From contig JAESQU010000215.1 in assembly GCA_016764995.1 (NCBI GenBank), positions 1 to 48,117 of the forward strand: DNA of 48,117 nt, read 5' to 3'. Numbering within the stretch: position 1 is the first letter of the stretch; the number at the start of each line of letters is the position of its first letter. A program made the translations under genes and the position numbers. The DNA comes from SAR324 cluster bacterium. Its GTDB lineage: Bacteria > SAR324 > NAC60-12. Shown here in pieces: positions 11,078 to 45,749 of the stretch. Under the pieces are notes generated by a model. That model worked only from the letters and a program-made list of their open reading frames with translations. It was not told the DNA's origin and searched no databases.

Positions 11078-12997
11078 ATGAAATCAATATTGGCTAGTAT
11101 CTCACAACCTAAAGAGATACAAAACTTAAATTTAAAAGAGTTGACTCAACTGGCCGAAGAATGTCGGCAGAGAATTATTGAAGTCACCAGTCAACGCGGC
11201 GGACACCTTGCTTCTTCACTTGGAACTGTGGAGCTCACCGTTGCTTTGCTAAAGAATTTTGATTTTAGCATGGACCGAATTGTTTGGGACGTTGGTCACC
11301 AAGCCTACCCTTATAAAATTCTAACTGACCGTAATGAAAAATTTGATACACTTGGAAAGTCAGGCGGAATCAAAAAATTTCTCTCTCGAGACGAAAGTAG
11401 CTACGACCATTTTGGTGCGGGACATGCCTCAACTTCAATTTCCGCTGCACTTGGAATGGCCATTGGTCGTGATCTTCAACAAAAAAAACATCGGGTAATT
11501 GCTGTCATCGGTGATGGTGCAATGACGGGTGGTTTGGCCTTTGAAGCCTTGAATCACAATGGTTCACTCGACAAAAACATGCTTCTTATCTACAACGATA
11601 ACGGCATCAGCATTGACCCGAATGTTGGCGCAATATCAAAATTGCTGACACGTTTTGCCTCCTCCAGATTTTACAACAGTTTCCGTGAAGAAACACTTGA
11701 ATTCGCGGAGAAAGCACCTTTTTCAGAACGATTAGGTCTGAAAGTTACATTACAGAAATTACACGATTCCGCAAAGAGCTTTTTATCTCCGCCAAGTATG
11801 CTCTTTGAACAATTAGGTTGGCGATATTTTGGCACAGTTGACGGTCATAACCTGGCCGAATTACTGGATTTAATAAATCGTGTTAAGAGTTTAGATGGTC
11901 CAATCGTGATTCACGCTATTACTCAGAAAGGTAAAGGTTACCCCTTTGCTGAAGAAGATTCTCACAAATATCACGGCGTCACCCCCTTTGAACCGGTCGA
12001 TGGTAAATTTATCAAGAAAAAATCAACCGGCGACGCAATCAGTTTTTCTCAGGTTTTTGGCGATAAACTTGGAGAATTAATGGAACGAGATGAAAAAGTT
12101 GTGGTGGTGACTGCGGCCATGCTTAGTGGAACAGGAATTGTTAAACTCCAACCGAAATATCCGGATCGCGTGCTTGATGTCGGAATTGCGGAGGGACATG
12201 CTGTGACATGTTCAGCAGGACTTGCTACCACGGGCAACAAACCATTTGTAGCAATTTATTCTACATTTTTGCAGCGTGCACTTGATCACATAATACATGA
12301 TGTTGCGATTCAAAATTTGCCGGTGCGTTTCATGCTTGACCGTGCAGGATTTGTTGGTGCGGACGGTCCGACTCATCATGGTTTATATGATCTGACTTAC
12401 CTGCGCATGATTCCCAACATGACAATAATGGTCCCTCGCAATGGTGCAGAATTACGCAGCATGATGGAGTTTGCCTGTAATTACGAAAGCGGACCATTGG
12501 CTATACGTTACCCCAGAGGAAATACTGCTGAGCTTGATGATAAAAAGAGTCCCCCGCTGGAATTTGGGAAAGCTCACATTTCGCGCAAAGGAAAAGATGT
12601 TGCTTTGTTTGCAGTAGGTTTGATGGTCGATACCGCAGAACAAGTGGCGAAACTTTTGGAAAAAAAAGGCTATTCAACAGCTGTTATTAATGCTAGATTT
12701 GTCAAACCTCTTGATGAGGAAGTGATTGTCAAATTTGGACAAAAAGTGAAAATGCTGGTCACATTGGAAGAAAACACGGTTCATGGTGGTTTCGGAAGCG
12801 CTGTACTGGAAACTTTGAGTGAGAATGGAATTTGTTTGCCGACATTTCAAATTGGAGTTCCGGATCGTTTCTTTGCACAGGGTTCTCCCGAAGAACAACG
12901 GGAGTCAGCTGAATTGAATCCGGAACAAATTTATTATCGAATTCTAGAAAGACTCCCTGTAATGGTCAAGAAAATGAACACGAAACGAACAGCCTAA
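11078..12997 (+). CDS. dxs: 1-deoxy-D-xylulose-5-phosphate synthase (639 aa)
   Basis: DXS condenses pyruvate and glyceraldehyde 3-phosphate, with ThDP, in the first step of the MEP isoprenoid pathway. Motifs seen are GGHLASSLG at 41-49, DVGHQAYPYK at 71-80, FGAGHASTS at 112-120, the ThDP motif GDG 145-147 ... NDN 173-175, the catalytic Glu at 372 in IAEGHAV, and DRAGFVGADGPTHHG. The length is typical. The window also encodes IspD from the same pathway (26577-27266), but far away and on the other strand. ATG 11078 has only a distant AAAGGGG at about 11056-11062 upstream. Confidence 0.97.
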   Translation: MKSILASISQPKEIQNLNLKELTQLAEECRQRIIEVTSQRGGHLASSLGTVELTVALLKNFDFSMDRIVWDVGHQAYPYKILTDRNEKFDTLGKSGGIKKFLSRDESSYDHFGAGHASTSISAALGMAIGRDLQQKKHRVIAVIGDGAMTGGLAFEALNHNGSLDKNMLLIYNDNGISIDPNVGAISKLLTRFASSRFYNSFREETLEFAEKAPFSERLGLKVTLQKLHDSAKSFLSPPSMLFEQLGWRYFGTVDGHNLAELLDLINRVKSLDGPIVIHAITQKGKGYPFAEEDSHKYHGVTPFEPVDGKFIKKKSTGDAISFSQVFGDKLGELMERDEKVVVVTAAMLSGTGIVKLQPKYPDRVLDVGIAEGHAVTCSAGLATTGNKPFVAIYSTFLQRALDHIIHDVAIQNLPVRFMLDRAGFVGADGPTHHGLYDLTYLRMIPNMTIMVPRNGAELRSMMEFACNYESGPLAIRYPRGNTAELDDKKSPPLEFGKAHISRKGKDVALFAVGLMVDTAEQVAKLLEKKGYSTAVINARFVKPLDEEVIVKFGQKVKMLVTLEENTVHGGFGSAVLETLSENGICLPTFQIGVPDRFFAQGSPEEQRESAELNPEQIYYRILERLPVMVKKMNTKRTA

Positions 12998-32556: not shown

Positions 32557-32850
32557 TCAAGCGAACGCTACTATTTTTTCAAGTTCTCCGGATTCGCTTT
32601 CTTTGATCAGGTCAATGTCATACTGTGTTTGGAGGCGCAGGAAATATCCTTCGGAAAGACCAAAAGATTTAGCCAGCCTCAAGCCGACTTTTGGGGAAAT
32701 CCGTCTTTTTCCTCTGAGAATTTCACTGATTGTCATATTAGAAATTCCAGTGTTTTTGGCCAATTTATAGGCACTCAGTCCCAGAGGAATCATAAATTCT
32801 TCCTTCAAGAAGATTCCCGGACATTCTAAAGGTATCAACTTTTTTGCCAT
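32557..32850 (-). CDS. higA: HigA-type antitoxin, XRE-family (97 aa)
   Basis: The protein opens with the HigA pattern PGIFLKEEFMIPLGLSAYKL, followed by an HTH (ISNMTISEILRGKRRISPKV) and LRLAKSFGLSEGYFLRLQTQYD. It binds its operator and neutralises the toxin encoded 9 bases upstream. Toxin-first order is characteristic of higBA. Both genes look intact. Confidence 0.92.
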   Translation of the reverse strand: MAKKLIPLECPGIFLKEEFMIPLGLSAYKLAKNTGISNMTISEILRGKRRISPKVGLRLAKSFGLSEGYFLRLQTQYDIDLIKESESGELEKIVAFA

Positions 32851-33632: not shown

Positions 33633-34073
33633 ATGCCTCGTTTTAGTCTGGAGACGGCCCTGAAAGTACGGGAGCGTCTTGAAAAACTCTACCAGAAAGC
33701 ACTTGCGGAACAGGTGCAACTTGAACAGCAGCATAGAAATAGAAAAAAACTGATGCAGGATGCTTTAGAGATACATAACAATGATTTAGACAAAGCGAAA
33801 ACAGATGGTGTGACATTAAATCAACTCTTAATGGGAGGACATTTTCAGCAGAGAATTAAACAACATTTGGAGCTCACGCAAGATCAACTGAACGAGCAAC
33901 TGGAAGTTGTAGAATTGAAACGTCACGAATTAACTCAAGCAACACAAAAAAAGCGGGTGCTGGAAATTCTAAAGGAAAAAGAAATCCAAAAATTCAAAGA
34001 TGAAACGGAACGTCTGGAACGTTTGGAGGCGGATGAAATTGCCCAGAATTATAGACGATATACTCAGAACTAA
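33633..34073 (+). CDS. fliJ: Flagellar export chaperone FliJ-like (146 aa)
   Basis: It starts MPRFSLETALKVRERLEKLY, the usual FliJ opening (F-x-L-x-x-L-L-x-x-R), and is one long charged coiled coil of about 146 residues. FliJ is the stalk of the flagellar export ATPase and escorts empty chaperones. Sequence conservation in FliJ is always low, so the call rests on shape and on the flagellar genes that follow. The expected fliI is not upstream; a remnant and higBA are there instead. Confidence 0.8.
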   Translation: MPRFSLETALKVRERLEKLYQKALAEQVQLEQQHRNRKKLMQDALEIHNNDLDKAKTDGVTLNQLLMGGHFQQRIKQHLELTQDQLNEQLEVVELKRHELTQATQKKRVLEILKEKEIQKFKDETERLERLEADEIAQNYRRYTQN

Positions 34074-34138
34074 TCAAAATATTGCCTGGATTAAAAGAAT
34101 TATCGAACATATCAATATTGCTTCACAACAGAAATATC

Positions 34139-34738
34139 ATGAATAAAATATTAAATATTATCAATAAATTCAAATTCTTATATTTATTTATTGGAATTGT
34201 AATGCTGGCAAGGCCCGCTTATAGCATACCAACAAGCATCGACGAATTGAAACAATCCATCGGTGCTCTCTGTGCGGATTATGGAATTGAATTTTGTGCG
34301 GTTGCAGTGGATGTCAAAAAGAAAGCAAAGAAACCTCGAAAGTTTACAGAGACCGAGAAAAAAATTCTGACAAGGCTTGCTGAACAGCAAGAACGTTTAC
34401 GTTTGAGAAGTTTGGAATTGGATCGGAGAGAGGGACAGCTCAAGACACTTCAGGAAGATATTCAACGTCAAGTCACTTTGTTGGAAAAGCTGCAGCAAGA
34501 GATTGAAAAGGATATAGCTAAAAAGAAAATACAAGACAATGCGCAGCTAATAAAGGCTGTTGCCTTATATTCAAAAATGGATGCGGCAATTGCAGCACAA
34601 TCACTGGCAAAACTTGATAGAAAAACTGCTGTTAACATCCTGAAACAAATGAAAGAAAAACAAGCGTCATTAGTACTTTCCAGTATGGGGGCAGCTGAAT
34701 CTGCCAGCATTATAGAGGCAATAACAAGAAAAAAATGA
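34139..34738 (+). CDS. motE: MotE-like flagellar chaperone with MgtE-N domain (199 aa)
   Basis: A signal or anchor helix (about 10-28, FKFLYLFIGIVMLARPAYS) is followed by a coiled coil rich in Gln, Glu and Leu (about 75-145) and a small helical MgtE_N-like domain (AVALYSKMDAAIAAQSLAKL, then RKTAVNILKQMKEKQASLVL). MotE proteins of this layout are encoded next to FliJ/FliK and stabilise the stator in some bacteria. ATG 34139 places the anchor at the N-terminus; an in-frame TTG at 34082 is less likely. It lies 65 bases after fliJ and 7 before fliK. Confidence 0.8.
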   Translation: MNKILNIINKFKFLYLFIGIVMLARPAYSIPTSIDELKQSIGALCADYGIEFCAVAVDVKKKAKKPRKFTETEKKILTRLAEQQERLRLRSLELDRREGQLKTLQEDIQRQVTLLEKLQQEIEKDIAKKKIQDNAQLIKAVALYSKMDAAIAAQSLAKLDRKTAVNILKQMKEKQASLVLSSMGAAESASIIEAITRKK

Positions 34739-34745
34739 GATTGAG

Positions 34746-36788
34746 ATGATGGAACCAATTGGACAAAAAGCTGTTATGCCCACGACTGAAGAGGCAATAG
34801 TTGTTGCAAGTGAGTTGGAAGCAGATTCCGGAGAAAGTGGTGAGGATGGAATTTTTGATACTACTCTGAAAGAAATGCTGGCAGAAATTCCTCTGGAGGA
34901 AAACCTGCTTGAAGAATTGCTTGATGAAGATGGCTTGTCTGCCTCACTAAATTCTGCCATCCTGACCCAAAATCAGCTGGATACAGCAGTTGTTGATGCT
35001 AATTTTGGTGCAGTCGATAGCTCGACGATGCCCCTGGAAATGCTTGGAGACGATCTTTGGAAAGAAGATTTATCTTCATTAAAGACTCAGGTGTTGCAAA
35101 AATCAACTCCAATTGCAACAGAATTGATTGAAGTGCTTGATCCGAGGTTTGCCATCGAAGAAAGTAATTTTGAGATTCTTCCGGAAAAAGGTATCGCCGA
35201 AACGGGACTTCAAAACTTATTACAGGAGTCAGATACTGACTCATCCGGAAGTTTGCTGCAATCAGTATTTCATAATGCAAATCCTTCTCAAGCTGCCGGC
35301 GAATTTTCAGCAGATAATCTGCAGAATGTCTTACAAAAAAACGTCAGCCAGTCAATTCAATTGGGACCAGGTGAGATGGAAAATGAGGCGGAGTTCACCA
35401 CAAGTGACCTGAAAATAATCCTGCAAAAAACGGCCAGTCAGTCATTTCAACTGGAAGGTGAGTATGAAATTTCAAAAAGTGATCTTCTACCTGAGACGCA
35501 AAAAAATACTGTTCAACCGCTCAAACTTCAAGACGATAATGTCCTTGTACAAGATCTCAAATCAGTTCTGAAAAATCAGGAAGAAAGTCTTCAAGAGGAT
35601 TTACAAACTGTTTTTCGGCATGGTTCACAGGAAGAAGCGGAAGAGTTTGAAAAACTTGGAGATGATAATCTGCAAAAACTTAAAAGGGCAGAAGTACCGC
35701 TCACTCCAGAAAAGATTAAATTGATGGAAAGCCTTAAAATTGTAGAAAAGTTTAAAGCAACAGATGAAATACAAGTAACAGTGAAAAGTGAAGAAACAAA
35801 AAATTTTCAAGGCAAAGTAAAAAACAACAATATTGAAGGCTTACAAGTCACAGATAAATTTAAGGTCACAGAAGAGTTTCGAGGTGGAACAATTTCAAAA
35901 GTCGCTGCCGGATTTCAAGCCACTGAGAAATTTAAAGTCGCAGAAGAATTTCTAGGCGGAGCAAAAGAAAAAACAGCTGAAGGTTTGCAAGTCACAGATA
36001 AATTTAAAGTCGCAGAAGAATTTCTAGGCGGAGCAAAATCAAAAGTGGCTACCGGCTTTCAAGCCACTGAAAAATTTAAAGTCACGGAAGAGTTTCAAAG
36101 CGGAGTGAAATCAAAAGTGGCTGAAGGTTTCCAAATGACTGGGATAGAAAATACGGGTGATATTTCTGAAAAGGCATCCATACGCCCTTTGAATCAGTTC
36201 AGGACATTGGAGTCTAATGAAACTCAACTTACAAGTAATGCCAAATCTACCATGGATTCAGCCACTCCTTCAGCAATTAATTCCCTCTCCGAAGTTTCCG
36301 GTACGTCGTTAGTCAAGGGAGGCGAAACTACAAAAACCGCAGCAGAGATTTTGCGAGGTACTGACCTTCCATTTAACATGGAGCAGGTAGTGAGTAGGGT
36401 CAGGATACTGCGCGGCAATGGTGTTGAAGAAATGACTCTACGATTACATCCGGAAGATTTGGGCCAAATTACTTTGAAAATCCGCCAATCCGGAGGAGAA
36501 CTCTCGATAGACATGCGCGTTGATAATTTTCTTGCAAAACAATTGGTGGAATCCGGATTTGATGCTCTCCGCAGCAAATTATTAGATCAGGATTTTTCTA
36601 ATCAGGATTTGGCTCTAAACGTTGATATAAACGAACGTGATGCACAATACAGTGGTAATCGAAATAATTCTGAGTTCGAAGAGGATTTGTTTTCTGCAGA
36701 GAGAGGGAGAAATGAAGAAGTTGCGGCTGTGGAAGAAACACCTCGTACTGAACGCAGGACTGATTCAGGACTCAATCTCTACGTCTGA
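34746..36788 (+). CDS. fliK: Flagellar hook-length control protein FliK, repeat-rich (680 aa)
   Basis: FliK measures hook length and switches export from hook to filament proteins. The C-terminal domain (about 545-635) has the conserved MTLRLHPEDLGQITLKIR and VDNFLAKQLVESGFDALRSK. The N-terminal ruler part is long, acidic and low in conservation, as is usual, and carries two repeat types. An imperfect unit around residues 185-285 has the text LQNVLQKN/LKIILQKT. Four 24-residue units at 365-460 are described as a separate repeat. At 680 aa it is long for FliK (commonly 400-500). It is 7 bases after motE and 12 before flgD. Confidence 0.88.
   Translation: MMEPIGQKAVMPTTEEAIVVASELEADSGESGEDGIFDTTLKEMLAEIPLEENLLEELLDEDGLSASLNSAILTQNQLDTAVVDANFGAVDSSTMPLEMLGDDLWKEDLSSLKTQVLQKSTPIATELIEVLDPRFAIEESNFEILPEKGIAETGLQNLLQESDTDSSGSLLQSVFHNANPSQAAGEFSADNLQNVLQKNVSQSIQLGPGEMENEAEFTTSDLKIILQKTASQSFQLEGEYEISKSDLLPETQKNTVQPLKLQDDNVLVQDLKSVLKNQEESLQEDLQTVFRHGSQEEAEEFEKLGDDNLQKLKRAEVPLTPEKIKLMESLKIVEKFKATDEIQVTVKSEETKNFQGKVKNNNIEGLQVTDKFKVTEEFRGGTISKVAAGFQATEKFKVAEEFLGGAKEKTAEGLQVTDKFKVAEEFLGGAKSKVATGFQATEKFKVTEEFQSGVKSKVAEGFQMTGIENTGDISEKASIRPLNQFRTLESNETQLTSNAKSTMDSATPSAINSLSEVSGTSLVKGGETTKTAAEILRGTDLPFNMEQVVSRVRILRGNGVEEMTLRLHPEDLGQITLKIRQSGGELSIDMRVDNFLAKQLVESGFDALRSKLLDQDFSNQDLALNVDINERDAQYSGNRNNSEFEEDLFSAERGRNEEVAAVEETPRTERRTDSGLNLYV
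35838..36125 (+). repeat. Four 72-base (24-residue) tandem repeats inside fliK
   Basis: Units are at 35838-35909, 35910-35981, 35982-36053 and 36054-36125, with a partial fifth unit (GFQMTG) after them. Each reads G-(L/F)-Q-(V/A)-T-(D/E)-KFKV-(T/A)-EEF and then a GG-x-x-K-x-A tail. Units 1 and 3 share GLQVTD, and units 2 and 4 share GFQATE, so a 48-residue pair appears to have been duplicated. The length stays in frame and may tune ruler length. Confidence 0.9.
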
Positions 36789-36800
36789 ACAAAGGTAACT

Positions 36801-37580
36801 ATGAAAACTGTAAACAACGTTGAACAAGCCCTGCAATTTAACGCAACGAGCTTGCGCAATCATGCGGCAAAAAGTAGCAATGACGGCAAAGAGCTGGGGA
36901 AACAGGATTTTCTTAATTTGCTGATGACACAAATGTCAAATCAGAATCCTTTGGATCCGATGGATTCAGAAGGAATGATGCAGCAATTAGCGGCTTTGGG
37001 CACAGTAGAACAGTTACAGAATCTCAATAGCCTGACGGCAAAGATGATGGAAGTCCAGCTACAAATTGCTCGCGCCACTGCAGGGAGCTTGTTAGGTAAA
37101 GATGTGGAAGTTGGCGCAAGAGAAATTCCATTGAATAACGGGGATACTATTCCGGTTACATACAAGTTGGATGGTAGCGCCGACCGAGTAATGCTGCTTG
37201 TACGTGATTCAACGGGTGAGATGATTCGTGAAATTAATCTCGAAAGCAGAGCAGAAGGCCCTCATGAATTTGCCTGGGATGGACGTGACAATGATGGTGA
37301 TCTGATGCCGAATGGAAGTTATAGCTACAATGTATTTGCCAGAACAGACGGTGGCGAAGAGATTGGTGTTACATTGACCAAGTCCGGACAAGTCTCAATG
37401 GTTCGTTTTGAAGGTAGCAACCCGCTGTTGAAAATCAATGGTGAGTGGGTGGAGGCCAAAGAAATAGTCGGCATGGCTAACAAAACTAATTTACGTTATC
37501 AAAACGCAATACCTTTACCAGCGAGAACAGAACTGATGACTCGTAAAACTCCGTATTGGAGTTCTAATAGTTCAGAATAA
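36801..37580 (+). CDS. flgD: Flagellar hook-assembly scaffold FlgD (259 aa)
   Basis: FlgD caps the growing hook. The N-terminal signature is GKQDFLNLLMTQMSNQNPLD with MDSEGMMQQLAALGTVEQLQ (about 33-70). The FlgD/Tudor and Ig-like domains follow (VTYKLDGSADRVMLLVRDST, then HEFAWDGRDNDGDLMPNGSY). An extra C-terminal stretch of about 55 residues after VSMVRFEGSN, basic and Pro-rich, is longer than in E. coli FlgD. It is placed between fliK and flgE, as in many flagellar clusters. Confidence 0.95.
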   Translation: MKTVNNVEQALQFNATSLRNHAAKSSNDGKELGKQDFLNLLMTQMSNQNPLDPMDSEGMMQQLAALGTVEQLQNLNSLTAKMMEVQLQIARATAGSLLGKDVEVGAREIPLNNGDTIPVTYKLDGSADRVMLLVRDSTGEMIREINLESRAEGPHEFAWDGRDNDGDLMPNGSYSYNVFARTDGGEEIGVTLTKSGQVSMVRFEGSNPLLKINGEWVEAKEIVGMANKTNLRYQNAIPLPARTELMTRKTPYWSSNSSE

Positions 37581-37709
37581 AACTGGTTGAAGCTTAGAGT
37601 TTAGCCTCGAACAAAGAGTATTAACTTTTAACTTTTTTCATAATATCTATGCGAAGCAATGGAATGTATCGCCTGATATCTTTTCTAATTCAGTTTAAGG
37701 AGAAATAAA

Positions 37710-39194
37710 ATGGCGTTACTTGGATCATTAAATACTGGTGCCAGTGGGGTACAAACTCATGGCAAAGCCATGCAGGTTGTTGGTAATAATATTGCCAACG
37801 TCAATACTTTTGGCTTTAAACGCAACAGTGTTGCTTTTGAGGACTTAATGGGAAATGCCCAGCCACAAGGTGCTACCTTTACGAAGGCCAGTAATGGTGT
37901 GAAAATTGGTGGTGTGGAAATGGACTTTTCTCAAGGTGCATTTGAAACTACTACCCTTAGCACTGATATGGCAATTGCCGGCGGCGGATTTTTTACAATC
38001 GTGAGTCCTAGTACCGGCAAACAATCATATACTCGTAACGGTCAATTTTCTTATGACAAGGAGGGCTTTCTTTCTACCCTTCGTGGTGGACGTGTTCAGG
38101 CCTTGAAAGTAGACCGGATTACCGGTGAAAGTAAAGGTATTCCAGGAGCGCTACAAATTTTGGGACTTGTGGATGCACCTCAGCCGACAGGGACAGGACA
38201 CAAAGGAACCGGAATTAAGCTTGCCGCCAACCTTGATGCAAACGCCAGCATAAAAGATGTTCCAGTTGATCCGACAAATGTGACGGACAACATGTATAAT
38301 TTTGCCACGTCCACTACAGTTTATGATTCATTAGGTAACACTCACGCTGCAACTATTGCCATGCGAAGGAGACCAGACCTTCCTGAACAAATTGATCCTG
38401 CCACTGGCCAACCAATCGCTGGAACAGGTGTCAGCAATCAATGGGAATACTACATGCTGTTTGATGGTGCCTCATTGGGGCAAGTCCCGGGAACAATGGT
38501 CGCGGTCGGCGGTGGATTTATGCAGTTTACTGATGATGGAAAATTAATTGCCGCAACAGGTGGATCTTTTCAAGCACAGCCGGGAGGAGTTGATCCGGAT
38601 GGGAATCCTTTGCCGGAAGGGCCTCCTCGATTAATTCCACAACCCGTTGACCCTGACACAGGTATTCCACAATTTGCAATACCATTTGGTGGAGGAGCTC
38701 CTTTACTTATCGGTCTGCATCTTGGAGATGGTTTTAATCCGGACGATCCGACAGATCCCAGATCCGGGCTGGATGGAATTACTCAATTTGCAGGTCATTA
38801 TAATGTACTTCGAACAAGTGCTGACGGAAATCCTGCAGGAACTTTAGAGAGTATTTTTCTGGAAGACAACGGAACTGTCAATGGTGTTTTTGATGCCGGA
38901 TACACGCGAGCGATCGGTAGAATCGTTTTGACTAAATTTGATAATCCTGGAAAACTTGCTCAGGTTGGTGAAAACATGCTTGTTGAAACTTTAGGTTCCG
39001 GAAAGAAAGTGACCGGTGAGGCCGGTACAGCTGGATTAGGCGAAATTCGTAGTAAAAGTTTGGAACAATCAAACGTTGATCTCTCCCAGGAATTTGTCAA
39101 AATGGTAGAAACTCAACGTGCCTTTCAAGCAAGCGCTAAAACAGTGACTACTTCTGATGAGATGATTCAGGATCTGATCAACATGAAGCGGTAA
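37710..39194 (+). CDS. flgE: Flagellar hook protein FlgE (494 aa)
   Basis: The N-terminal rod/hook motif is MALLGSLNTGASGVQTHGKA with VVGNNIANVNTFGFKRNSVA. The C-terminal D0 motif is LEQSNVDLSQEFVKMVETQR with AFQASAKTVTTSDEMIQDLI. The variable middle has a Pro/Gly-rich insertion (about 285-345). AAGGAGA at 37699-37705 is a strong ribosome-binding site. It is separated from flgD by 129 bases, so it may have an additional promoter. A hairpin 14 bases after the stop should end transcription. Confidence 0.96.
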   Translation: MALLGSLNTGASGVQTHGKAMQVVGNNIANVNTFGFKRNSVAFEDLMGNAQPQGATFTKASNGVKIGGVEMDFSQGAFETTTLSTDMAIAGGGFFTIVSPSTGKQSYTRNGQFSYDKEGFLSTLRGGRVQALKVDRITGESKGIPGALQILGLVDAPQPTGTGHKGTGIKLAANLDANASIKDVPVDPTNVTDNMYNFATSTTVYDSLGNTHAATIAMRRRPDLPEQIDPATGQPIAGTGVSNQWEYYMLFDGASLGQVPGTMVAVGGGFMQFTDDGKLIAATGGSFQAQPGGVDPDGNPLPEGPPRLIPQPVDPDTGIPQFAIPFGGGAPLLIGLHLGDGFNPDDPTDPRSGLDGITQFAGHYNVLRTSADGNPAGTLESIFLEDNGTVNGVFDAGYTRAIGRIVLTKFDNPGKLAQVGENMLVETLGSGKKVTGEAGTAGLGEIRSKSLEQSNVDLSQEFVKMVETQRAFQASAKTVTTSDEMIQDLINMKR

Positions 39195-39482: not shown

Positions 39483-40139
39483 TTAGAATCCGTAATAGAA
39501 GCCGATAAATGACGCAGTGCCGCCGAGAGAGAGAGGTTTGTTTTCAGTGGCGACTTCTAAATCAGCGGAAATGTATTGCTGAGTGAAAACGAGACCCATT
39601 CCATTGAAAGGAATACGGAAGCCGAATTTGTAAAAAAATGATTTATCAACCTGTCCAAATACGGTTCCATAAGTTTTGGAACTTCCTGTAACTAATTCCT
39701 CCTGTACTTTTGCAGAATAATTTCCTGTGCCAAAACCTAGGAAGGGGAACCAGAAATCTCCTCGATAATAAAAATTTAATCCGTACAAAAGTCCAACTGC
39801 GGATATGTTTACAGAAGAACTGTCATTTTCAAAAGTGTATGACTTGTTGTAACTGTGTACTTCAAGGCCAAAACCACTGGCGAATGTTCCGGTAGTCTTG
39901 TAAAAGTCAAAGGATAAAACTTTCGGGCTAACCTGTCGGGTTTCTTTCAAAGCACCATGAGTATCAGCCAAAGTGGATAAGTATGAGTCTTTACTTCCAA
40001 CTACCGGCGCTGGGCTTCCAGTATCCTGTTCTCCGTATTGAATGGCCAGATAAACCACAGTTTCTTCCGCACACCATCCTGTTGTTACAAAGGAAAACAG
40101 GCACATTGTTGTCAAAATTAGTTTCTGAAAATGTTTCAC
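39483..40139 (-). CDS. Outer-membrane beta-barrel-like protein (218 aa)
   Basis: A signal peptide (VKHFQKLILTTMCLFSFVTT, cleaved near GWCA-EET) precedes a barrel-like mature part with strands such as VGLLYGLNFYYRGDFWFPFL and a terminal aromatic strand SFIGFYYGF, typical of BAM substrates ending in Phe. GTG 40139 overlaps the TGA of the upstream gene (GTGA, 40136-40139) and gives a clean signal peptide; an ATG at 40160 would add seven residues. The two genes are probably translated together. No family was recognised. Confidence 0.65.
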   Translation of the reverse strand: MKHFQKLILTTMCLFSFVTTGWCAEETVVYLAIQYGEQDTGSPAPVVGSKDSYLSTLADTHGALKETRQVSPKVLSFDFYKTTGTFASGFGLEVHSYNKSYTFENDSSSVNISAVGLLYGLNFYYRGDFWFPFLGFGTGNYSAKVQEELVTGSSKTYGTVFGQVDKSFFYKFGFRIPFNGMGLVFTQQYISADLEVATENKPLSLGGTASFIGFYYGF

Positions 40140-41281
40140 CAACTTACCCCCATTTCCCAAAAGAAGACGAAATCCGTTTCGTTACCAAAATTGTTATAAT
40201 CCTGGACAAATCCGGTTTCCCAAAAGATGCTTCCGGAAAGGAATTTGTAGCCGAATGCGGAAACACTTGTTGGTGTACTCAAGTTGGAGTTTCGTTGTTC
40301 CTGATTCTCTCCACTGGTTGAACGGGAACTTGCACCGGAATTCGGAAAAATGCTACTTTGCGAAACAGTTTGAAATACAAAAGAGTCTTCTTCCGCAAAC
40401 CGATACTCCATTGTCATGAAACGATGCGACAGTGAAGACGCAAATCCACGATTATTGCCGATTCTAGTTTGTCCATCGCCAAAATAGACAATCCAATTAT
40501 TGAATCCTTTTGAAAGAATTAAATAATGTCCCCAGTCTACCCCACCGCTGCGAATTAATTGTTGTTCTCCGCTGCGGTCGGTATTGGCAAATTTATAGCT
40601 TAGCTTCAAGGATGCGGCAGGCATTACCTTGCCACCTTCAGATAAGTTCCATTTTAGCCCCACGATTGGTTCGCCCCGCACATTGTAAATCTGCTGTGTA
40701 CTGGCGTAAACAAATTCTCCATCTTTGACCACATAATAAGCATATTGGTTGCGCTCAGACAGAGCACGATAAGCGCCTCCTTTTTTGAAGTTTGAAATAC
40801 CAATCATGCTATGAACACTTTCGATGGTGCTGTCCATGGTACCGCCGTCAAAGGATATGAAAGGTAATTCGAATTTGAATTCTAATGAATCCGATAACCC
40901 ATAACGGTATTTGATCTTTTTACGTTTGCTTTCAGCATCTAAATACAAACTGAATCCTTTGACGGTGTTCCCGTCTTTATCCAGAAAATCCGCAAGTGTT
41001 AACCCGCGTGCTACTTCAGTCTTTGTGATTTGCTCAGTCGGTCCCTGGGTGTTGACAAAGGTATTTGCGATATCAATTCCAAAAGACAAGCTTGCTTCAC
41101 CATTTTTCAGGGTTAAGGTGTTTTCAGGAGACATTGCCAAAAACGGCTGATTTACCAAAAATTGCGGGCGAATTTCCAAAGGTCCAAGACCAAAATTTTC
41201 TCCGCCTGCAATTGCTGATTCTTCTCCATAAAACAAAATGAGGAAAAATGCAAATAAGACTAATAACCCTTTTATTTTCAT
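40136..41281 (-). CDS. DUF3187-like outer-membrane protein (381 aa)
   Basis: The signal peptide is MKIKGLLVLFAFFLILFYGE... cleaved near IAG. The mature part starts GPLEIRPQFLVNQPFLAMSP, similar to the opening of DUF3187 family proteins (GPL..RNQ.P), with YGLSDSLEFKFELPF and repeating amphipathic strands, and ends in W. It is therefore probably a 12- or 14-strand barrel of unknown function. Its stop overlaps the start of the second barrel gene, which suggests the products act together. Confidence 0.65.
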   Translation of the reverse strand: MKIKGLLVLFAFFLILFYGEESAIAGGENFGLGPLEIRPQFLVNQPFLAMSPENTLTLKNGEASLSFGIDIANTFVNTQGPTEQITKTEVARGLTLADFLDKDGNTVKGFSLYLDAESKRKKIKYRYGLSDSLEFKFELPFISFDGGTMDSTIESVHSMIGISNFKKGGAYRALSERNQYAYYVVKDGEFVYASTQQIYNVRGEPIVGLKWNLSEGGKVMPAASLKLSYKFANTDRSGEQQLIRSGGVDWGHYLILSKGFNNWIVYFGDGQTRIGNNRGFASSLSHRFMTMEYRFAEEDSFVFQTVSQSSIFPNSGASSRSTSGENQEQRNSNLSTPTSVSAFGYKFLSGSIFWETGFVQDYNNFGNETDFVFFWEMGVSW

Positions 41282-41436
41282 AGACCTGAATTTAGACCAA
41301 AAACACGTTCGGCTGGCTTAAAATTTGGGAACATCCCCAGCGAAAGTGAATCCAAGAGTTATGCCTTTTACCTTATGAAAAAATTTGTCACAGTAATAGC
41401 ACGGAATTTCGAAAAAATTAGTGCATAGCCTGACTG

Positions 41437-41456: not shown

Positions 41457-41571
41457 GTTATTTTGCTGGAAGTATCATTGTGTTTTTTTAACATCTGTTT
41501 CAACATCAGTCTTTTAGTCGTGGTTCTGAACTGCTAAACTTTGTTCAATCTATAATTAGAGGAGTTTCCTT

Positions 41572-42312
41572 ATGCAGCTTGAAAAAAAACTTGTTTCCTC
41601 AGGTTACTGGCTGTTTCGTTGGCGAAGTTATTTTCCAATTATCATAATTTTGATTTTCATTCCCGCCATGACGGAATATGAATATGTGGGAGGTAGTCGC
41701 GAGATGACCACTATGTGGGGCCTTTTTAGTATGTTTGTCGGATTGCTGGGTTTGTTTTCAAGAATTCTGGTTGTGGGTCATACACCTCAAAACACTTCTG
41801 GAAGAAATACCAGGGAACAAATTGCCGATGTTCTGAATACCACCGGTTGGTATTCTGTTGTTAGACATCCGCTGTATTTGGGGAATTACTTGATGGGACT
41901 CGGCATATCGCTCTTTCCATTTGTCTGGTGGATGCCTGTAATTTACACATTATCATTTGCGCTTTATTACGAAAGAATAATGATAGCCGAAGAAGATTTC
42001 CTCAGGGGTAAATTTGGCGAGGACTTTGAAAAATGGTCTGATGTTACTCCGGGATTCTTTCCGGCATTTTCGAAATGGGATAGTCCTTCACTGGAATTTT
42101 CATTCAAAAATATTTTGCGGAGGGAATATTCTAGTCTTTTCGCACTTGTGCTCTGCTTTACAATTCTGGATTTTATTGGGAATTATTTGGTGGTGCAAAG
42201 GTTCTATGTTGTGCAAATTTGGATTGATCTCTTCTGGATAACTCTGGTGGCATATTTAATTTTGAGAACCTTGAAACGGTATACAAAAATACTGGATGTT
42301 GAAGGCAGATAA
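41572..42312 (+). CDS. ICMT/PEMT-type membrane methyltransferase, LmtA-like (246 aa)
   Basis: The protein has about six hydrophobic segments. The conserved core GWYSVVRHPLYLGNYLMGLG with EEDFLRGKFGEDFEKW at about 143-158 is the SAM-binding signature of the isoprenylcysteine carboxyl methyltransferase/phospholipid methyltransferase superfamily. The phrase SGRNTREQIADVLNTTGWYS also recalls LmtA, which methylates the lipid A 1-phosphate in Leptospira, so a lipid phosphate methyltransferase is a specific possibility. AGAGGAG at 41558-41564 supports ATG 41572. It is followed 47 bases later by the triple-repeat protein gene. Confidence 0.75.
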   Translation: MQLEKKLVSSGYWLFRWRSYFPIIIILIFIPAMTEYEYVGGSREMTTMWGLFSMFVGLLGLFSRILVVGHTPQNTSGRNTREQIADVLNTTGWYSVVRHPLYLGNYLMGLGISLFPFVWWMPVIYTLSFALYYERIMIAEEDFLRGKFGEDFEKWSDVTPGFFPAFSKWDSPSLEFSFKNILRREYSSLFALVLCFTILDFIGNYLVVQRFYVVQIWIDLFWITLVAYLILRTLKRYTKILDVEGR

Positions 42313-42359: not shown

Positions 42360-43349
42360 ATGTCCAAACTGAATGAAATGATTCGTGAATTTCGCGAAGA
42401 CATCGGCCAGAGCACCGAAGGTTTAGCGTTACTGATGCAAATGGATCAGGAAGAGTATGCGCGTTTGGAAAAAGATTGGATTCCGCCGGATGACATTCTT
42501 CAGCGGTTGTGCGCACTCTTTGAATGGAATTATAAGGACATTAAACGGCTTGCCGATAATACTCCCTCCGTAAAAAATAAAAAATCAAATCCGGAAAATA
42601 AAAAAGCTTCTGTTACCGAAAATAATTCTGCCGAAGTTTCCACGACTCCTTTTGCAAAAATGATCAAGGAAGCCCGCAGTGCAGCCAAACAGGATGCGCG
42701 GGGCATTGCCATTTTGTTGGGTATCTCTGCTGATTATTACCAAGAGTTTGAAGCGGGCGTAATTCCTCCGGATGATTTGCTGCGCAAATTAAGTTCTTTG
42801 TTTGGTTGGAATTACAAACAAATTCTGCAAAAAATCAATACCCAGAGTACAGTTCTGTTTGGCAACCGGCAACCTCTGCTTCATGCCAAGGAAATTCGGG
42901 CGCGCTTGCCAAAGCTCGAATTACCGGATATTCCGGATGTTCCCGCACCTGTTTCTCTGCATGTGAAAATTCTAGAAGCGAGAACTGAGGCGAAACAAAA
43001 TGTGGACGGAATTTCCCTCTTATTGCAAATTAATCCTGAATTGTATGAGCAGATTGAATCCGGAACTGTGAATCCTGATCCGGATTTGTTAAAACGAATT
43101 TCTTCTCTTTTCGGTTGGAATTATCATGAATTGCTGAACCGTGAAAAAAATTCACAATTCAGTCAACTGCTTCCGGCAATCATTGCACGGGATTCTCCGG
43201 ACAATTCGCTGACTGAAATTAAACTCAGAAAAGTTCAGCAGGAAATTTCGGAAAATTGGCAGAAAATTTCCAAAGAGCAACAGAAAACACTGCTGACTCA
43301 ATTGGAATTCATTCGTGGTTCAATGGAAAACCTTGACAATGAGAAATGA
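42360..43349 (+). CDS. Protein with three tandem XRE-like helix-turn-helix repeats (329 aa)
   Basis: Three homologous units of about 61-63 residues are seen at 4-64, 98-158 and 200-262. Each has a first helix (MIREFRE, MIKEARS, ILEARTE), GLALL/GIAIL/GISLL, a small turn (MDQEEY, ISADYY, INPELY), E-x-x, IPPDD or NPDPD, and the closing LFEWNYKD, LFGWNYKQ or LFGWNYHE. The layout is that of XRE/Cro-type HTH domains, but the third helix lacks the usual Gln/Arg-rich recognition face. Linkers are Lys/Asn-rich (66-97) or Pro-rich (168-199), and the C-terminus (about 285-329) is a coiled coil (IKLRKVQQEISENWQKI). It could be a DNA-binding or a protein-scaffold repeat protein. No known family was recognised. 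Confidence 0.72.
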   Translation: MSKLNEMIREFREDIGQSTEGLALLMQMDQEEYARLEKDWIPPDDILQRLCALFEWNYKDIKRLADNTPSVKNKKSNPENKKASVTENNSAEVSTTPFAKMIKEARSAAKQDARGIAILLGISADYYQEFEAGVIPPDDLLRKLSSLFGWNYKQILQKINTQSTVLFGNRQPLLHAKEIRARLPKLELPDIPDVPAPVSLHVKILEARTEAKQNVDGISLLLQINPELYEQIESGTVNPDPDLLKRISSLFGWNYHELLNREKNSQFSQLLPAIIARDSPDNSLTEIKLRKVQQEISENWQKISKEQQKTLLTQLEFIRGSMENLDNEK

Positions 43350-43671: not shown

Positions 43672-44184
43672 ATGACACTTTGGACAAATGATATTTTTCA
43701 AGTTTTGGTTAACCACCAAGTCCGTCAAGTGGCTTATGTCCCAGATGCTGGACATACCCATCTCATTAATCGATGCGGTCAGTACGGTGAAATGGTATCA
43801 GTGCCCTTGACGACTGAAGAAGAGGGAATTGCCTTATTGGCAGGAGCCTGGCTTGGGGGAGATCGAGGTGTGCTCCTGATGCAAAGCAGTGGTGTGGGAA
43901 ATTGCCTCAACATGTTTTCCTTAACACGAACCTGCCGCATGCCTTTACTGATGTTAGTGACGATGCGTGGAGAATGGGGAGAGTTCAATCCCTGGCAGGT
44001 TCCTATGGGACAAAATACAGAAAAATTATTGAAAGCTGCTGATATTCTAACCTTTCATGTTGATGAAAGCAATCGATTGGGAGAGACGACAGAGGCAGCA
44101 GCACGTATGGTCTTCGAAGGTCCTGCTGCCGCTGCTGTTTTGATATCACAGCGTATTCTTGGCACAAAAACATTTATGGAATAA
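43672..44184 (+). CDS. ThDP-dependent decarboxylase alpha subunit, sulfopyruvate/phosphonopyruvate type (170 aa)
   Basis: This is the PYR (pyrimidine-binding) domain of a two-subunit ThDP enzyme, like ComD of sulfopyruvate decarboxylase. The catalytic Glu is in TTEEEGIALLAGAWLGGDRG at about 47-66, and LLMQSSGVGNCLNMFSL is the conserved following segment. The product should be an aldehyde (sulfoacetaldehyde or phosphonoacetaldehyde) from a 3-carbon keto acid. It needs the PP-domain partner encoded next to it; the two genes are one base apart. The choice between sulfonate, phosphonate or another keto acid cannot be made from sequence. Confidence 0.82.
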   Translation: MTLWTNDIFQVLVNHQVRQVAYVPDAGHTHLINRCGQYGEMVSVPLTTEEEGIALLAGAWLGGDRGVLLMQSSGVGNCLNMFSLTRTCRMPLLMLVTMRGEWGEFNPWQVPMGQNTEKLLKAADILTFHVDESNRLGETTEAAARMVFEGPAAAAVLISQRILGTKTFME

Positions 44185-44185
44185 A

Positions 44186-44794
44186 ATGGATCTGGATCGT
44201 AGCAATCATTACTCCCTTCGTCGTCGTGAAGTTGTCAAAATGCTACTCGATCAGCGTGACTCAGGCATGCTGATTGTTGCTGGATTGGGTGCACCTACAT
44301 GGGATGTAACTGCGGCAGGTGACGAACCATTGAATTTCCCTTTGTGGGGAGCTATGGGAGGTGCAGTCTCGCTTGGATTGGGCCTTGCAATAGCCCAACC
44401 CACTCGGAGGATTTTAGTCATTACTGGTGATGGAGAGATGCTAATGGGACTTGGATCGCTTGCAACAGTCTCTATTCAAAGTCCATCCAACTTGGCAATT
44501 TTTGTACTGGACAATGAACGTTATGGAGAAACCGGCATGCAGGCTACACACACAGCAGGCAATGTAGATTTGGCTGCTGTTGCTCGAGCAACAGGTTTTT
44601 CTGAGTGCCACAACATTGCTGACAAAAAAAGACTCCGATCACTGTTACCTCAAATCCAAAACGGTGAGGGGCCTTTATTTTTCAACGTAAAAGTCCGTGC
44701 AGAAATTCTCCCCCTCGTACTTCCACCCAAAGACGGAGCTTTTCTCAAAGATCGTTTCCGTGTAGCTTTATTTGGGTCGGATCCAGTCCGTTAA
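44186..44794 (+). CDS. ThDP-dependent decarboxylase beta subunit, sulfopyruvate/phosphonopyruvate type (202 aa)
   Basis: This is the PP (diphosphate-binding) domain partner, like ComE. The ThDP/Mg motif is GDGEMLMGLGSLAT with NLAIFVLDNERYGETG about 26 residues later. The opening MDLDRSNHYSLRRREVVKML and AGLGAPTWDVTAAGDEPLNF match the ComE-type N-terminus. ATG 44186 was chosen over 44159, which would overlap the alpha gene. The TRAP permease remnant starts within 40 bases after it, so a linked uptake system may have been lost. The last part (FLKDRFRVALFG) is well conserved in the group. Confidence 0.82.
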   Translation: MDLDRSNHYSLRRREVVKMLLDQRDSGMLIVAGLGAPTWDVTAAGDEPLNFPLWGAMGGAVSLGLGLAIAQPTRRILVITGDGEMLMGLGSLATVSIQSPSNLAIFVLDNERYGETGMQATHTAGNVDLAAVARATGFSECHNIADKKRLRSLLPQIQNGEGPLFFNVKVRAEILPLVLPPKDGAFLKDRFRVALFGSDPVR

Positions 44795-44832: not shown

Positions 44833-45749
44833 GTGGTAAAAAAGATCAAATGGAGGGCTAAGGCCCCACTCGGCACCCTCGCAGGTTCCGGAACATTGGG
44901 TTTGTTGATCCCTCCTTCTATTATTTTGATTGTTTATGGTGTTGCCATAGAGGAATCCATCGCACAGCTTTTCGTAGCTGGTGTATTCCCTGGCATTTTA
45001 CTGGTTTTTCTGTTCATGGGCTATATTGTCTTCTGGTCTCTGTTCAACAAAGACCGAATGCCCCCCGCAGAGCCACGTACACCAATGTGGCAACGGATAA
45101 AGGGCACTCGCAGTTTGTTGCCGATCTTATTTCTAATTGGCGGTATTATTGGATCCATCTACGCCGGCTGGGCTTCTCCTACTGACGCGGCGGCGGTGGG
45201 CGTGGTACTGTCCCTGGTGCTTTCCTGGTACAATGGCAGCTTGAATCGATGAAGCTTTTTGGCAGCTTTGATGGTGGCAACCCGGACCTCCTGCATGATT
45301 GCCTTTATTCTGGCTGGCGCGCATTCTTGACTGTAGCCCTGGGTTTTACCGGTATTGCACGGTTCTTGGCTCAGTGGGTCGGCTCATTGGGATTGAGTCC
45401 TAATATGCTGCTTGTTACCCTGTCCATATTTTTCGTAGTCCTTGGTTGTTTTCTTGAAGGCATATCGATTGTGGTCTTGACCACAGCGGTGATCCAACCT
45501 ATCATAGAACAAGCGGGGATCGACCGGATCTGGTTCGGTATCTTCATTGTCATCGTTGTCGAGATGGCGCAAATCACCCCGCCGGTGGGATTTAATCTAT
45601 TCGTAATACAAGGTTTGACCGGTTATAATATACAGTATGTGGCGCGTGCCACCTTGCCATTCTTTATCCTGTTATTGGCCGCTGTTATAATTATTTCGGT
45701 TTTTCCGGAAATCGTTACCTACCTACCCGAACAGATGTCGAGGCGCTGA
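44833..45749 (+). pseudogene. C-terminal part of a TRAP transporter large permease (DctM), decayed
   Basis: The frame reads LGTLAGSGTLGLLIPPSIIL and then IVYGVAIEES, followed by several membrane helices, which is the middle of a DctM/SiaM-type permease. The first 150 or so residues are missing. The frame stops at TGA 45250-45252, but SFLAALMVATRTSCMIAFIL follows in the same frame, and near 45317-45323 one G appears lost, after which LTVALGFTGIARFLAQWVGS continues to 45749 in another frame. So there is a truncation, a nonsense codon and a frameshift. The GTG at 44833 is probably not a real start. The DctP and DctQ partners are absent. The product would have imported an organic acid, perhaps the substrate of the neighbouring decarboxylase. 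Confidence 0.85.

Follow-up and report, generated by a model that had tools for sequence, protein, structure and literature searches.

The gene at 42360 to 43349 on the forward strand of the window (the whole stretch of SAR324 cluster bacterium DNA that was analysed, 48,117 nucleotides) encodes a 329-residue protein, P0001, with three tandem helix-turn-helix (HTH) units of the XRE fold. It belongs to a real, conserved, lineage-specific family of repeat proteins rather than representing HTH motifs run together by chance, and in nearly every unit of this family the face with which an XRE domain would read DNA is acidic. Judging from sequence, we find it somewhat probable that P0001 is an acidic XRE-fold adaptor whose units bind a partner protein and not an operator.

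The open reading frame starts with ATG, and the three units, each with a length of ~62 residues and separated by linkers of ~30 to 40 residues, were delimited using AlphaFold2 and signature residues described below and, for unit 3, also VIA. Unit 1 comprises residues 3 to 66 (42366 to 42557), unit 2 residues 97 to 162 (42648 to 42845), and unit 3 residues 200 to 262 (42957 to 43145; the modelled helices span residues 200 to 275). They are followed by a C-terminal helical hairpin at residues 283 to 325 (43206 to 43334) that is kept in three-unit and two-unit homologues; all these features are on the forward strand. The motif LF(E/G)WNY occurs three times, i.e. as LFEWNY at residues 53 to 58 and as LFGWNY at residues 147 to 152 and 250 to 255. 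Pairwise alignments of the three units contain 0 or 1 gapped residue and have scores of 128, 114, and 156, while shuffles had mean scores near 22, and none of 500 shuffles matched the score of any pair. Scored as a whole, P0001 reached 58.2 bits with the Pfam model HTH_19 (cut-off 30.2) and also passed HTH_3 and HTH_31; among the single units, only unit 3 passed HTH_19 (34.3), with units 1 and 2 at 14.3 and 23.9. The AlphaFold2 model of the full chain, which the original prediction had proposed as a check and which was computed from an alignment of 12 sequences from the genus, has five helices in each unit in addition to the C-terminal hairpin, with a mean pLDDT of 67, 207 residues at 70 to 90, and low confidence in most of the linkers. 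These data support the original prediction of three XRE-like units of ~62 residues ending in LF(G/E)WNY.

The nearest solved folds of the protein are of the XRE type, i.e. SinR, DdrO, HigA, and P22 c2. For unit 3, VIA Z was about 9 to 11 against HigA, P22 c2, and DdrO; the VIA rows lie mainly over residues 196 to 288, with few on units 1 and 2, and Foldseek with the whole chain returned zero matches at E ≤ 0.001. P0001 is predicted to be soluble, and a membrane span is not likely in the family, in which the maximal 19-residue hydropathy is 0.81 for P0001 and 0.42 to 1.24 across 24 members. The computed pI is 4.8 to 6.5 in all 17 f1 homologues listed and from 5.1 to 9.8 in the f2 and f4 homologues, for some of which the start codons are uncertain (f1 to f4 denote families of the SAR324 phylum, and the genus of the window is in f1). 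Using Pfam, we recognised no added sensor or dimerisation domain in P0001 or its homologues, which have two or three units, and the earlier statement that the protein has no recognised regulator layout held up.

Searching with the family profile, we found strong matches (E below 1e-40) in 36 of 52 genomes of the SAR324 phylum, including 25 of 31 in f1, 10 of 10 in f2, and 1 of 1 in f4, but 0 of 10 in f3; the profile-search tally of 38 of 52 genomes counts two with weak matches alone. Proteins from f1 have three units and those from f2 and f4 have two, and all share the helical C-terminal tail. Thus, homologues with only one HTH domain, which would have spoken against the original prediction, are not what was found. 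The gene is present in a single copy in its own genome. It is missing from four f1 genomes of the same genus, which are 51 to 87% complete and in which draft gaps may be the reason, and from two f1 genomes of genus g4, which are 87 and 90% complete and look more like cases of true absence. Among relatives of the locus that carry a name, most are metagenome genomes of the SAR324 cluster. Origin from a phage or mobile element was considered and rejected: 66 pattern matches in viral contigs yielded no confirmed relative, and tblastn gave 0 matches in plasmids and phages. Because relatives were not detected on plasmids, phages, or viral contigs and because of the distribution in the phylum, we regard the family as inherited in part of the SAR324 phylum. 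A tree of the units (62 rows, 60 columns) did not recover the origin of the third unit. A description of the family was not found in listings of largely open-access literature on DUF3187, on three or tandem XRE HTH domains, or on SAR324 helix-turn-helix proteins.

The original prediction had offered two functions for three HTH domains in one chain, i.e. binding of long or bent DNA sites or service as protein docking repeats. The two were compared by counting charges on a face of 13 positions, which were chosen beforehand and which in the 434 repressor touch DNA or are next to it; we take these positions to be equivalent to the 434 repressor DNA contacts. Face charge is a sequence proxy for compatibility with DNA. 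The family units came from alignment A1, which has 24 rows and from which L052, L054, L065, L068, and all of G040 to G044 were excluded, and units gapped at more than 3 positions were omitted, which removed unit 2 of L064. As controls, we used 59 XRE domains (57 distinct) out of 91 HTH_3 matches in 21 genomes; 19 of 30 loci were taken for near full-length ungapped matches and 40 were hand-picked down the list.

The mean face charge was −2.77 for the family units (n = 61; range, −5 to 0) and +2.18 for the control domains from the same and related genomes (n = 57; range, −1 to +4), with an MWU p of about 4e-21 that is inflated since rows are related. With one protein per lineage, the mean was −2.54 and 36 of 37 units were below zero, compared to 5 of 57 controls. 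At the other 23 positions, off the face, the means were −0.77 and +0.54, respectively, a difference of 1.3, and only 1 of 2,000 random 13-position sets separated the two groups equally well. By this charge proxy, the family units lack the DNA-compatible recognition face that is a trait of XRE/HTH_19 regulators. The units also carry a four-residue signature: Q or H at position 10 (60/61 units versus 0/57 controls), L or M at position 18 (61/61 versus 10/57), D or E at position 24 in the recognition helix (52/61 versus 3/57), and Y or F at position 26 (60/61 versus 1/57). All units but one (60 of 61) have at least three of these four residues, a combination not seen in any of the 57 controls; the one unit that departs from this is unit 1 of L064, the f4 protein and most divergent homologue, and its face is neutral. 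With acidic DNA-reading faces in almost all units, binding of long or bent sites is not favoured, and canonical operator binding by the family units appears unlikely. The reversal of charge is centred on the face, and we therefore lean towards docking repeats.

XRE folds that contact proteins have precedents. The RodZ-type HTH is a well-known XRE fold that serves protein contact and not DNA (PMC6946637). The cytoplasmic HTH of RodZ (HTH_25) shares the XRE fold with the family, and RodZ-type proteins are the nearest outsiders by the family profile in the same genomes: the weak profile matches were RodZ-type genes in 6 of 7 cases in which both searches covered the genome. P0001 itself scored 13.9 bits with HTH_25, below the cut-off of 24.6, and 12 of 24 members matched at E ≤ 0.01 (best, 3e-7). 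RodZ, whose HTH binds MreB, carries a single HTH followed by a membrane span and also has a periplasmic part, whereas the SAR324 family has two or three units and no span. Moreover, unlike the family, RodZ-type HTHs of the same genomes have the signature in 0 of 20 cases at each of positions 10, 18, 24, and 26. Their mean face charge is −0.6 (n = 20), between the family and the controls, and their recognition helix alone is basic (+1.2); a docking HTH therefore need not be as acidic as the family units. As a separate observation, seven loci (L193, L198, L203, L204, L206, L207, and L208) encode an N-terminal portion resembling DnaJ (a J domain, judged by eye) fused to a RodZ-type HTH_25 domain, with the rest of RodZ missing.

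SepH of actinobacteria, which is annotated as DUF3071, offers a parallel by description in that it uses a single HTH motif to bind the protein FtsZ (PMC7968930). In the Xre-RES toxin-antitoxin complex of Pseudomonas putida (PMC12204516), several XRE domains are presented together, as in the SAR324 family, but from separate chains and for higher-order DNA binding; we found no RES domain in the neighbours scanned around the HTH loci. XRE/Cro-cI regulators (HTH_19, HTH_3, and HTH_31; SinR, HigA, DdrO, and P22 c2) have the same five-helix fold, and the family differs from them in the reversed charge of the DNA face, the tandem units, and the lack of a recognised dimerisation or sensor domain. We would place the family with HTH domains that have been adapted to contact proteins, from which it differs in its assembly from two or three units with inverted faces.

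We next consider a DNA-binding regulator whose three HTH units would together read a long asymmetric site between the divergent genes and control both the divergent DUF3187 pair and its own operon. Genes at the loci were called with codon scoring, and neighbours were counted by tblastn. On the opposite strand, the DUF3187 gene (40136 to 41281) is the divergent neighbour at each of the 17 loci examined in f1, drawn from 25 f1 genomes having the HTH gene, and it is paired in all 17 loci with a short gene (39483 to 40160, reverse strand; 225 residues, no Pfam match) that overlaps its end. In the genus, the gene for a methyltransferase lies between the DUF3187 and HTH genes; in other f1 genera, the latter two face each other over about 90 to 150 bases. 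An intergenic block of about 59 bp (41339 to 41397) is conserved in the genus, and its core, GGCATAACTCTTGG (41352 to 41365, reverse strand), is kept as GG-N8-TTG pointing to DUF3187 in 16 of 17 f1 loci, although the rest of the f1 intergenic sequence aligns poorly between genera. We rejected a genome-wide regulon for this element, given that the pattern YCAAGANNTRTRCC is about as common as a reversed control across the 52 genomes; a core that is not enriched elsewhere is, at the same time, what a local operator would give. Together with the XRE fold in every unit, these observations speak for a DNA-binding regulator. In addition to the acidic faces, two observations weigh against it. First, the core is also spaced as a −24/−12 promoter, and its conservation could therefore arise without the HTH protein. 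Second, the f2 homologues have other neighbours, and their upstream regions yielded nothing above background that resembles the f1 element except for one 11/16 match at −528 in L054. Taken together, we regard DNA binding of this kind as rather unlikely.

Sigma-54 promoters have GG at −24 and a TTGCA-type −12 part at a fixed spacing. In the f1 core, TTG is followed by A or G rather than C; hence, because the −24/−12 spacing fits but the −12 part is without the usual GC, we consider the core a candidate promoter only. In f2, GG-N8-TTGCA is present on the strand of the HTH gene 79 to 177 bases upstream in 10 of 10 loci (L054 to L063, ten genera), as compared to 0.02 to 0.07 per locus by chance in shuffled upstream regions, and in 0 of 1 f4 loci. 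This f2 element has the sigma-54 promoter pattern and spacing and may be a sigma-54-like promoter; a sigma-54 gene was found in 46 of the 52 genomes. In the genus, a GG-N8-TTGCA element directed toward the methyltransferase-HTH pair (41468 to 41482, forward strand) is strict in 5 of 10 loci, and in the window copy the −12 part has drifted to TTGTG.

In f2, a gene for a response regulator-SpoIIE phosphatase is located upstream in the opposite orientation in 8 of 10 loci (at a distance of some 1.7 kb in L054), and a Spo0M-like gene is located downstream of the two-unit gene in 8 of 10 loci, with a contig end accounting for one of the two misses. In f1, the short 225-residue gene product ends in FYYGF, like an outer-membrane barrel, and both divergent genes may encode such barrels; this reading draws on the aromatic C-terminal residues because the AlphaFold2 model of the DUF3187 protein has a mean pLDDT of 29 and is uninformative. 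An envelope theme is suggested by these C-terminal residues and the LmtA-type gene described below. Sigma-54 has been associated with envelope functions in a comparative study (PMC3162934), a link that would fit this locus but proves nothing here.

Several further observations concern the surroundings of the gene. In the window, flagellar hook genes (FliJ-, FliK-, FlgD-, and FlgE-like by eye; 33633 to 39194) precede the DUF3187 pair, a genus trait that is absent in the other f1 genera examined, and a second XRE domain (32641 to 32796, reverse strand; HTH_3 E 3e-10) lies near the flagellar genes in a frame of about 100 residues. Downstream of the HTH gene, two adjacent frames (43672 to 44794 and 44833 to 45749) resemble, by eye, the halves of a sulfo- or phosphonopyruvate decarboxylase and are followed by a TRAP-type large permease that is also split into two frames. 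In genome G005 (L046), the short gene downstream of DUF3187 is broken into two frames near 11817 to 12492.

A broader reading sees a SAR324 string-of-beads family in which every XRE face is inverted and acidic, so that the proteins would be DNA mimics or docking ladders for DNA-binding proteins, a multivalent antirepressor or co-regulator class made entirely of repressor domains put to a new use and linked to the expression of envelope genes; we consider this combined proposal improbable. The narrower proposal of a DNA mimic or decoy, in which the acidic XRE faces would capture basic XRE repressors, or some other protein that binds DNA, and remove them from DNA as an antirepressor, agrees with acidity concentrated on the exact face that would meet DNA and with host genomes rich in XRE proteins, as the 91 HTH_3 matches illustrate. 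Mimicry alone does not explain why position 18 is conserved as hydrophobic and position 26 as aromatic, and we regard a mimic as very unlikely.

The original prediction also suggested a link between the protein and lipid modification, based on the gene located upstream. That gene (P0002; 41572 to 42312, forward strand) encodes a membrane methyltransferase of the LmtA/ICMT type, and its stop at 42312 is separated from the HTH gene by 47 bases, as predicted. P0002 is LmtA-like along its length, matching TIGR04571 (LmtA, lipid A Kdo2 1-phosphate O-methyltransferase) over residues 2 to 246 of 246 with an E of 6.1e-71; the score of 239.1 bits is under the model cut-off of 325, and LmtA activity is putative. 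The methyltransferase gene directly precedes the HTH gene on the same strand in 13 of 13 genomes of the genus having the HTH gene (in G007, it is truncated by the contig end). The proposed pairing is therefore conserved inside the genus, and the link has support there. Outside the genus, the pairing is not conserved, an outcome that the original prediction had named as speaking against it: the two genes adjoin only in this genus, no match for the methyltransferase was found in 8 genomes representing other f1 genera, of which 7 contain the HTH gene, and in f2 a homologue with 38% identity is present in 2 of 10 genomes on a contig different from that of the HTH gene. Also, in G005 (L046, 9666 to 10403), the methyltransferase frame has two in-frame stops while the HTH gene and DUF3187 are intact. 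With the adjacency limited to the genus, a methyltransferase partnership is out as a general explanation; the arrangement is confined to the genus, and the neighbour probably misleads as to the function of the HTH protein; that P0001 is a partner or regulator of the adjoining enzyme is the least likely of the readings considered.

We return to the acidic docking adaptor. In this model, a soluble protein of two or three XRE-fold repeats and a helical tail would have retained the XRE fold, and its DNA-reading face would have been converted to an acidic, partly hydrophobic docking face, such that each unit would grip a partner protein instead of an operator. We infer that the acidic face binds protein. 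We guess that this partner is part of the apparatus that regulates the adjacent genes (the response regulator-SpoIIE phosphatase pathway is a candidate in f2); equally a guess, the C-terminal tail might dimerise the protein. Several observations count against docking. The divergent layout and conserved intergenic element are the classical arrangement of an autoregulating DNA-binding regulator, and the nearest solved folds and profile matches are mostly such regulators. Charge is a proxy, and some controls share the acidic character: position 24 is acidic in 3 of 57, and the face charge is negative in 5 of 57. Finally, the pI of the f2 and f4 homologues is widely spread, and the first unit of L064 combines a neutral face with the lack of the signature.

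Annotation usually assigns XRE domains to DNA-binding regulators, and this label would be applied to an entire family in a widespread marine phylum despite a face that looks unfit for reading DNA. If the docking model is correct, the family would be a repeat-built example of an HTH turned into a docking module, and the face charge together with the Q10/L18/D-E24/Y26 signature would provide a simple sequence test for finding other docking HTHs.
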